Part shown: one piece after another, positions 11,360 to 16,912 of the stretch
Position numbering within the stretch: the stretch's first letter is position 1
Layout of the letters: each line of letters starts with the position of its first letter
From: a virus
Length of the DNA: 38,340 nucleotides
IMG/VR virus record: IMGVR_UViG_3300005563_000064
Location: 1 to 38,340 of that record
Direction: 5' to 3' (one strand)
Made by a program: the position numbers and the translations under genes
Notes under the pieces: generated by a model
The model's database searches: none
Seen by the model: the letters and a program-made list of their open reading frames with translations, nothing else
What the model was told of the DNA's origin: nothing

Positions 11360-11846
11360 TTTTAACCTCTACTTGTTCTTTAGTTTTGTCTTTAAGGTTT
11401 AGTAGTTAAGTAGATATCCAAGAGGTTTGAGCAATACTCAGGATAGCCCTATTTAAAGAGATCTATCCTTTATAAGCATCCAGTGAGGAATCGCTTAACT
11501 CGTCAGCCTTTTCGCGTACCAGGGTGCTAACTTCGTCGCCCTGTTGTGTGGTTCTTCCTACGCTGCCTACCGGTCCCACTATTCACCACAAGCTGCCGTC
11601 GTTCTCATTACCCGGCTTGTAGGTCCAGAACGCAAAAAAGCCATTGAGTCTGGATTCTTATCAGTTGGGCGGGTTCTAGGTAGAGTGATCCCTAAAACGA
11701 TACTGATAAAAACCCAAGCTCAATGGCTTGCACTCTCTTTTACTATCCCCGCCAAAGGACAACTGAATTATTCAACATCTCCGTCAGACTTGCAAGCGTT
11801 TTTCTTACAAATATCGGATAAATCGCACAAAACTATGCCGGTTTTC
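11360..11846 (-). ncRNA. Long structured gene-free region, candidate ncRNA
   Basis: No credible gene in 487 bases. The core is a rod-like hairpin at 11634-11728: 10 pairs (11719-11728 with 11639-11648), 8 pairs (11702-11709 with 11658-11665) and 7 pairs including one G-U (TTTTAGG with CCTAGAA), ending on the minus strand in a run of T. Further helices: CGTTCT/AGAACG or, alternatively, 11586-11593 with 11615-11623; 11520-11524 with 11539-11543; 11440-11446 with 11463-11469. The G-U and the T-run both favour the minus strand. The promoter is unclear. Family not recognised. Confidence 0.55.
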
Positions 11847-15534: not shown

Positions 15535-15695
15535 TTGCCTCTCCTCTCACATTGACGACATTTCGTCGAATCATTTTCATATTGCGCGATACTGCGACGT
15601 TTTCGGCAACTGATGCAGGTGCGTTGCGTGTGCGAGTAGTGCAGCATGTTGCGGGTGTTATTACGAAAGGCCTGCAATTGGTCAGGGCTACTCAT
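15531..15695 (-). CDS. 54-residue zinc-finger protein
   Basis: Two CxxC pairs (CISC at 27-30, CRQC at 46-49) in a basic context (RKRRS, CERRGK) predict a small zinc ribbon that binds nucleic acid. It overlaps the HTH gene by ATGA and the next small gene by ATGA. Likely an early regulator or host-takeover protein; no family assigned. Confidence 0.7.
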   Translation of the reverse strand: MSSPDQLQAFRNNTRNMLHYSHTQRTCISCRKRRSIAQYENDSTKCRQCERRGK

Positions 15696-15868
15696 TTCTT
15701 GACTCGCTTGAAATAGTTTTCCAATGCGATAATCGTTACCCGGCTACGCTTTGCTTCTGGATCATTAATAATGTTCTTCATCGTTTGAGCGGTAACACCT
15801 GTCTTTGCCTCAATGACTGCCAGGTTATCGCGCTCATGCTCAAGTTTATTTGCTAACTGTTGATACAT
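15692..15868 (-). CDS. Small helix-turn-helix protein (Cro-like candidate)
   Basis: 58 residues from the ATG at 15868, chosen because GGAGG lies seven bases upstream; a start 12 bases further up lacks a site. The core LAVIEAKTGVTAQTMKNIIN reads as a helix-turn-helix (helix, turn at TGVT, recognition helix), followed by VTIIALENYF. It is the first gene of the minus-strand early operon, next to the operator dyad, so autoregulation as a Cro-like repressor is likely. No CI partner is present. Confidence 0.7.
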   Translation of the reverse strand: MYQQLANKLEHERDNLAVIEAKTGVTAQTMKNIINDPEAKRSRVTIIALENYFKRVKK

Positions 15869-15895
15869 ATTTACCTCCATTTGATCGACAACTGA

Positions 15896-15956: not shown

Positions 15957-15985
15957 TTGCTATCGTATTCTGAGTATTCTATGAT
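15957..15985 (+). promoter_or_regulatory. Divergent early promoter, plus strand
   Basis: -35 TTGCTA (15957-15962), 17-base spacer, -10 TATGAT (15980-15985). Expected start near 15992. It would make the 390-base structured leader and then the plus-strand early operon. The region GATTCAGT after the -10 is the inverted copy of ACTGAATC at 15891-15898 beside the opposing promoter. Confidence 0.65.
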
Positions 15986-15991
15986 TCAGTC

Positions 15992-16384
15992 ATCGCACAG
16001 AAACAAACCTGAACGGCGAACACAAGACTAAGGTTAGATATGTGCGTAAAGTTTGGCAAACCTTCCCAAGCTTGCTCGCCAGTCGGTGCACAGCAAGACA
16101 GTTGGAATGCCCGTTAAACCTCCGCCGCGTTAGTGCGGAGGGCCAACAGGAAAGAGGGAGCCACAGCAAAACGGACTTCCCGATGCATGCGCAGTACCGA
16201 ACGCGCTGAGAGGGCATGCAAACAAAGGGTGTAATCCTCTTTTTCCTGTTGGTGGATATCCGTAGCGCGAGCGGATGTGAGTGCGATGTAACGAGGCGGG
16301 TAATTTACTCAGGTCGCATATTAGTTGACCGCCCAACCGGAAATGAGCAACCGGCCACCAACTTCAATTTATAGGGAGAGAATA
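15992..16384 (+). ncRNA. Structured 390-base leader or stand-alone ncRNA
   Basis: Between promoter and first gene the RNA can form: GGCGA/TCGCC (16015-16019, 16076-16080) enclosing CAAG/CTTG and AAGGTT/AACCTT; CCTCCGC/GCGGAGG (16119-16125, 16135-16141); a 15-bp helix 16143-16157 with 16236-16252 (two-base bulge) enclosing TGCATGC/GCATGCA (16184-16190, 16214-16220); ATCCG/CGGAT (16258-16262, 16272-16276); and crossing helices 16281-16286/16314-16319 and 16295-16299/16329-16333, a possible pseudoknot. CAACCGG occurs twice just before the gene. No open frame of note. Not recognised as RNase P, tmRNA or a group I intron. Confidence 0.65.
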
Positions 16385-16912
16385 ATGAAAACAACTTTGA
16401 ATGAAATTCGTGAAAATTCGCCATGTCATGAAGGATGGACTAAATTGCTCAAGTCTTTGAATAAGACAAAAGCAGATGATGCGCCAGTTTCAATTACCCA
16501 AGTTTTGGACAGCAATGGATTGGATGATGCTTTGTGGTGTCTACGTGCAGTAAAAGGACATGACAAAGAAATCCGCTTGTTTGCTGTATGGTGCGCTCGT
16601 CAAGTTGAGCATTTGATGACCGATCAACGCAGTAAAGATGCATTGAATGTCGCAGAGAAATTTGCAAATGGCGATGCGACACAGGAAGAATTGGCTGCTG
16701 CGTGGGCTGCTGCGTGGGCTGCTGCGAGGGCTGCTGCGGGGGATGCTGCGGGGGATGCTGCGAGGGATGCTGCGTGGGCTGCTGCGTGGGCTGCTGCGGG
16801 GGATGCTGCGTGGGCTGCTGCGAGGGATGCTGCGTGGGCTGCTGCGAGGGATGCTCAAGAAAAAGAACTGCGTCGTATCTGCGCAAAGATTGATCAAGAA
16901 GCAGAAGCATGA
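16385..16912 (+). CDS. Ala-rich tandem-repeat protein (Imm5-like)
   Basis: 175 residues from the ATG at 16385 behind GGGAGAG. Residues 1-104 form a helical domain with LRAVKGHDKEIRLFAVWCAR, similar to the phage and bacterial family grouped with Imm5-type putative immunity proteins. Residues about 105-156 are 13 four-residue repeats AA(W/R/G)(A/D), predicted as a continuous helix with one variable face. The ending QEKELRRICAKID is a normal helix. It is the first gene after the structured leader. Function unknown. Confidence 0.75.
   Translation: MKTTLNEIRENSPCHEGWTKLLKSLNKTKADDAPVSITQVLDSNGLDDALWCLRAVKGHDKEIRLFAVWCARQVEHLMTDQRSKDALNVAEKFANGDATQEELAAAWAAAWAAARAAAGDAAGDAARDAAWAAAWAAAGDAAWAAARDAAWAAARDAQEKELRRICAKIDQEAEA
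16697..16852 (+). repeat. 13 tandem 12-bp repeats, GCTGCGNGGGMT
   Basis: Thirteen uninterrupted units within the Ala-rich gene. Variation is restricted to base 7 (T, A or G) and base 11 (C or A), coding AA then W, R or G, then A or D; the other ten positions are invariant. The unit length keeps the frame whatever the copy number, and all frames stay open across it, producing spurious long frames on both strands. Confidence 0.95.

Follow-up and report, generated by a model that had tools for sequence, protein, structure and literature searches.

A conserved structured RNA ahead of the early genes of a phage, and its moderately supported place in a mosaic superfamily that includes tmRNA-type tags

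Introduction

Large phage RNAs without an established function are a recognised open problem. The locus considered here belongs to an IMG/VR virus record of 38,340 bases, the whole of which is called the window throughout. It is flanked by a minus-strand block on its 5' side, including a short gene (15692-15880), a NinB homologue and a C5-cytosine methylase, and by a plus-strand early block on its 3' side, encoding a 175-aa phrog_18326 protein, a YqaJ/RecE-type exonuclease, an HNH endonuclease and an SSB. The ~390 nt in between had been proposed to form a large structured RNA, either a stand-alone molecule or a switch that gates the early operon. The locus therefore raises two questions: is this RNA real, and does it serve the genes behind it or act elsewhere in the cell?

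Results

The leader carries no credible gene and follows a promoter-like site

Two features bracket the RNA:

15957..15985, plus strand: promoter-like site TTGCTA-17-TATGAT before the RNA (consensus match only)
16385..16912, plus strand: first plus-strand gene after the RNA, 175 aa, phrog_18326, function not assigned

As originally predicted, positions 15992-16384 are without a credible gene; neither of the two minus-strand ORFs found there (75 and 68 aa) has a PHROGs or Pfam match. The promoter-like site agrees with the consensus at 9 of 12 positions and is not evidence on its own, three such sites having been found where 1.7 are expected. Because nothing resembling a terminator turned up between the RNA and the first gene (16385), the RNA would be at least co-transcribable with that gene as a leader. 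Relatives of the first gene are numerous in viral contigs, and its homologues in L010, L030 and L064 likewise sit behind an RNA of the same kind, which makes four phages with this arrangement. Among 69 scored relatives of the gene, 44 have an upstream ORF ending at most 100 nt away (the ORF calls are mechanical).

The first plus-strand protein contains a long Ala-rich tandem repeat (window 16690-16855) whose repeat number differs in relatives, for example in L030. Elsewhere in the window, 11498-11622 on the minus strand matches the Rfam family RF02932 (Betaproteobacteria-1 RNA) at 51.8 bits, against a cut-off of 49.4. This match represents a second structured RNA of the window phage and hints at a betaproteobacterial host.

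A conserved core is supported by covariation

The predicted fold of the leader comprises the following parts, all on the plus strand:

15994..16046: 5' stepped hairpin, CGCACA/UGUGCG with AACCU/AGGUU inside (predicted fold)
16052..16111: 5' module UUUGGCAAACCUUCCC...GGAAUGCC, 59 of 60 positions identical in L010
16119..16141: P0 hairpin, 7 bp, directly 5' of P1; perfect pairing in seven members with differing sequences
16119-16125/16135-16141: P0 strands
16143..16252: core (P1, P2, P3, GAGA loop); six independent members, covariance model R1
16143-16159/16235-16252: P1 strands
16175-16176/16231-16232 and 16179-16181/16227-16229: P2 strands
16184-16190/16214-16220: P3 strands
16208-16211: GAGA loop in the core
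16247..16365: 3' domain, related to the 3' domain of HK620/ST4-type RNAs (match of covariance model R2)
16248-16255/16355-16362: possible closing helix of the 3' domain
16258-16263/16271-16276 and 16337-16340/16351-16354: hairpins of the 3' domain

The long stem with a nested 7-bp stem of the original prediction corresponds to P1 and P3, and its perfect 7-bp hairpin to P0. The expectation that the RNA would fold better than shuffled sequence is clearly borne out for the core only (z = -4.17, 0 of 200 shuffles as good), whereas the whole leader exceeds its shuffles modestly (z = -2.06, 4 of 100 as good). The proposed pseudoknot (16281-16286/16314-16319 crossing 16295-16299/16329-16333) fares worse: it can be drawn, but an equivalent crossing pair occurs in 297 of 300 shuffles. 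This stretch is not alignable across homologues, and no homologue was found for the stepped hairpin at 15994-16046.

By BLASTN, window positions 16143-16257 have a counterpart of 79% identity in Aeromonas phage ST4, where it precedes three tRNA genes and carries no annotation. Scanning viral contigs and bacterial genomes for sequence patterns adds the core members L004, L006, L007 and L008, of which L007 is the same prophage as L095, from Pseudomethylobacillus aquaticus H-5; the core thus recurs in ST4, in this prophage and in three further IMG/VR phages. The six cores align across ~110 nt and each folds with a z-score of -3.2 to -4.2. In the window, the core match includes the conserved elements GAAAGAGG, GAGAGG and GGGUGNAAUCCUCUUUUUC, and R1 scores it at 110.3 bits and the others at 112-123, all of these being training sequences of the model.

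Homologues keep P0, P1, P2 and P3 despite their differing sequences. RNAalifold identifies seven pairs changed on both sides, and the P2 pair 33-93 is A-U, G-C or U-A depending on the member. In a permutation control for which the helices were placed by hand and the relatedness of members is not corrected for, cognate P0 strands are paired at 42 of 42 positions, against a mean of 58% for swapped strands (cognate value reached by 1 of 5040 permutations), and cognate P3 strands at 40 of 40, against a mean of 64% (2 of 720 permutations). This pattern has the appearance of selected RNA structure. The prediction of a large structured phage RNA was thereby settled by homologue comparison, by which the window RNA is judged real and conserved.

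Searches beyond these members were less productive. Some 770 proteobacterial genomes yielded no additional core to R1, and BLAST with the window RNA against plasmids and E. coli genomes returned nothing useful. DNA-pattern matches at L003, L005, L009, L090-L094 and L096-L099, mostly protein-coding, were rejected as chance, as was a distant R1 match in a proteobacterial genome (L118, 36.5 bits) on account of its G-rich low complexity. A T-arm reading of the conserved GGGUGNAAUCC was dropped, its bases covarying with ACUUCCC as an ordinary helix. Rfam, compared with the region up to E = 5, returned no family except a chance miRNA model; the absence of any GOLLD or ROOL covariance match up to this limit vindicates the earlier reluctance to assign the RNA to either.

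The RNA is built from exchangeable modules

The closest relative of the first gene, at 81% aa identity, lies in L010, where a leader is also present. This leader keeps the 60-nt 5' module and the last ~25 nt before the start codon, while the core between these flanks has a different sequence on the same plan: a hairpin, then a long helix GCCAACAUAGAA/UUCUAUGUUGGC. As the flanks are conserved and the core is replaced by another of the same plan, the window RNA is a mosaic, and the pair of leaders displays module exchange directly. The L064 core resembles that of L010. In L030, three tandem RNA units stand before a copy of the phrog_18326 gene, and in the third of these (L030:2040-2187) P1 (CAACACAGAAG/CUUCUGUGUUG) is continuous with the acceptor stem of a tRNA-like cloverleaf that has both D and T arms. 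BLAST of this unit in phages found nothing; for Klebsiella phage KP591P1, a similar arrangement is predicted, with a cloverleaf capping P1.

The 3' domain moderately links the RNA to a wider superfamily

The 3' part of the ST4 RNA (GGUGAAUGCGCAGGCUGAUGCGC ... GCCGGAGAUCAGCACCGGCCACCAC) is common to HK620, swi2, 2_D05, STGO-35-1 and others, and a query consisting of the 3' domain and the preceding P1 domain matches 205 phage records. R2, a covariance model of the 3' domain trained on sequences other than the window, matches the window precisely at 16247-16365, the place expected from P1, which it follows directly; the score is 17.7 bits and the E-value 8.9e-5 in 501 nt. In a 116-kb search the E-value of this match is 0.02, and one chance match elsewhere in the window scores equally; for these two reasons we call the link moderate, and the membership of the window RNA in the HK620/ST4-type mosaic superfamily is moderately supported. 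R2 also matches the P1-like phage RCS47 and, with varying strength, L030 and L064. The two 3' hairpins of the relatives may touch through a loop-loop contact. The complementary loops GCUGAU/AUCAGC of HK620-type RNAs are absent from the window, where the loop is AAAUGAGCAA and the other loop holds no GCUCAU partner.

Several tandem 3'-domain matches in RCS47 (L108:1687-2501) overlap plp and upl, two minus-strand genes whose annotation may be spurious. Pieces of HK620-type RNA are held by 410 of 5426 complete E. coli genomes, and the listed matches have no annotated feature beneath them.

Relatives carry tmRNA-type tag frames

The HK620 query matches 846 phage records, mostly through a module at the start of HK620-type RNAs. 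At all 12 loci read that carry it, this module contains UAAAU, then GCA AAC GAN, seven further codons and a stop. The tags encoded include ANEEMYLAVA, ANDNVFLAVA, ANDNTFLAVA, ANDDVVLMAA and ANDDLMMVAA. The tag of E. coli tmRNA is ANDENYALAA, with U85-A86 upstream of the resume codon, and the HK620-type frames have U-A at the positions of this dinucleotide. A pattern scan of viral contigs yields at least 120 matches with at least 23 different tags; among the matches listed, synonymous codons occur at most varying tag positions, the opening codons, and in part positions 7, 9 and 10, being set by the pattern itself. Tag frames were located at:

L101:2798-2830, L105:1510, L106:1541, L107:1573, L108:1046, L109:1056, L110:1567, L120:485, L123:717

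RNAs with tag frames occur in HK620, Felix O1-like, Kuttervirus, Schitoviridae, P1-like and Klebsiella phages.

With default settings, ARAGORN called no genuine tmRNA at the tag-frame loci read; its tmRNA in L102 is spurious, joining the RNA to a separate tRNA-Met. The window RNA contains no tag reading frame with resume codon and stop, and default ARAGORN found neither a tmRNA nor a tRNA-like domain with an acceptor end in it. Permissive settings gave a dozen spurious 'permuted tmRNAs' in the window, which were not taken as evidence. Phage tmRNA as such is already known: tmRNA genes have been reported in 402 phages (PMC9004378), and ARAGORN tmRNAs in Felix O1 and Moogle are mentioned in announcements of Felix O1-like phages (PMC4392139, PMC4319497). 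A search of the open-access literature found no description of the mosaic superfamily described here.

Members occupy varied genomic positions

The RNA lies in the early leader in the window and in L004, between two genes in L007/L095, in the late leader between pR' and the holin gene in HK620 and HK629, and before terminase genes in 2_D05 and 62AhydR11PP. It stands beside tRNA genes in ST4, L006, L008, swi2, STGO-35-1, KP591P1, wV8 and RCS47. Behind the RNA of swi2 and STGO-35-1 come one tRNA and then convergent genes; L004 has a promoter-like site, TTGACA-17-TACTAT, after the RNA and before the next gene. No single downstream gene is constant across the family, the neighbours differing between the window, L004, L007, L008 and ST4. 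Given that relatives adjoin tRNA genes or terminase genes or lie in the late leader of HK620 and HK629, they have no cis target in common.

Discussion

Judged by comparison of sequences, the RNA ahead of the early genes is real, conserved and structured. It represents a new family that Rfam lacks and that carries no annotation in the records read. The family is tied moderately to a superfamily of phage RNAs that is very widespread and has members with tmRNA-type tags.

We propose that the ~390 nt form the structured 5' part of the early transcript and belong to a mosaic superfamily whose common scaffold would consist of the P0 hairpin, a long P1 whose apex can be exchanged and a two-hairpin 3' domain. 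A 5' domain with a tmRNA-type tag and an apex in the form of a tRNA-like cloverleaf would be optional parts, the window variant having a different apex (P2/P3) and no tag. Transcribed from the predicted promoter, the RNA would probably be cut from the early leader and, once folded, act in trans. The varied positions of relatives, the convergent genes behind some of them, the promoter-like site in L004 and the near upstream ORFs of gene relatives all point to such action, with the leader as merely the carrier of the RNA here. The tag and tRNA-like modules of relatives in turn suggest the host translation apparatus as the target, be it the ribosome, SmpB or tRNA-processing enzymes, and a decoy or capture role would be the simplest guess for the tagless window form. 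We give a probability of roughly 0.55 to this reading: a structured mosaic phage RNA, most likely trans-acting and probably cut from its leader, that works on the host translation apparatus. The missing tag frame and tRNA-like domain of the window RNA and its weak R2 match in the large search stand against this reading, as does the lack of a terminator before the first gene, and the four phages with the same gene family behind the RNA would also fit a cis role. More tentatively, the superfamily might derive from tmRNA, its tag, tRNA-like and scaffold modules serving to capture or redirect host ribosomes or SmpB, and its tagless forms serving as decoys.

Of the two roles first proposed for the RNA, a stand-alone molecule is possible, while a switch gating the operon is less supported, since relatives of the RNA precede different genes or no co-directional operon and 44 of the 69 gene relatives have a near upstream ORF, which leaves little room for an RNA. 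Such a cis-acting leader would change conformation, and a ligand or protein could in this way control translation of the early operon or elongation through it. Two partners are open to the strand GUUGGUGG (16248-16255): CCAAC of P1 (16143-16147) and CCACCAAC (16355-16362), the latter ~10 nt before the ribosome site. The three-strand overlap recurs with changed sequence in L010 (GCCAAC/GUUGGC/GCCAAC) and in HK620-type RNAs (CACAAC/GUUGUGGUG/CACCACAAC). The constant phrog_18326 family behind the RNA in the window, L010, L030 and L064 adds to this case. However, the model favours the P1 form by 8.6 kcal/mol, the swi2 RNA stands before a tRNA without a co-directional operon behind it, and the next gene of L004 has its own promoter-like site; we consider a cis switch unlikely.

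Two further readings are less supported still. Processive antitermination by a put-like RNA, which modifies RNA polymerase soon after the early promoter, would agree with where the RNA lies: directly behind a promoter in the window and L004, and within the pR' leader in HK620 and HK629. Put-type elements measure ~70 nt, which counts against this reading of a ~390-nt RNA, and in swi2 and STGO-35-1, where only a tRNA and convergent genes follow, there is nothing to antiterminate; we regard it as highly improbable. An assembly made of RNA only, a nanocage or scaffold in the manner of GOLLD and ROOL that needs no translation target, is suggested by the phage origin, the tRNA neighbourhood of relatives, the size and the multi-domain fold (PMC12286853). 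The lack of a GOLLD or ROOL covariance match and the smaller size, ~390 nt, speak against it and make it improbable, if somewhat less so than antitermination. A trans-acting RNA directed at translation remains our preferred reading.

The present work adds one more family to the large phage RNAs that await a function, and shows that such RNAs evolve by module exchange. The relatives provide a concrete biochemical hook in their tmRNA-type tag and tRNA-like domains, and the family suggests that such RNAs serve phages in acting on the host machinery of protein synthesis. As the HK620 RNA is testable in laboratory strains of E. coli, the role of large phage RNAs becomes directly testable.

Several known RNAs bear comparison with the family. 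In HK620 and HK629 the relatives lie where lambda has its 6S, or pR' late leader, RNA, between pR' and the holin gene; the likeness noted here is one of position, and the window RNA, unlike lambda 6S, lies in an early leader. STnc100 (RF02076) and PasD are prophage RNAs too and are described as base-pairing sRNAs, PasD1/D2 lying near the antiterminator Q (PMC13192938). STnc100 has no match in the window at the Rfam gathering score. In the upstream part of the ST4 RNA region, L002:5547-5655 gives a sub-threshold match (39 bits, cut-off 47), from which STnc100-like modules may join the same mosaic. GOLLD (RF02032) and ROOL (RF03087) are, like the window RNA, large folded phage RNAs without an established function, often found near tRNA genes, and GOLLD combines a conserved 3' part with a variable 5' part (PMC12286853); the window RNA differs from both in its conserved core and is shorter. 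The remaining comparison is with tmRNA (ssrA, including phage-encoded and permuted forms), to which some relatives are alike in carrying a tRNA-like domain and HK620-type relatives in their 10-codon frame A-N-[DE]-...-A-stop, while the window RNA has neither module. The arrangement also differs: in the relatives the tag lies 5' of a closed cloverleaf, in tmRNA within a tRNA-like domain whose CCA end is free.
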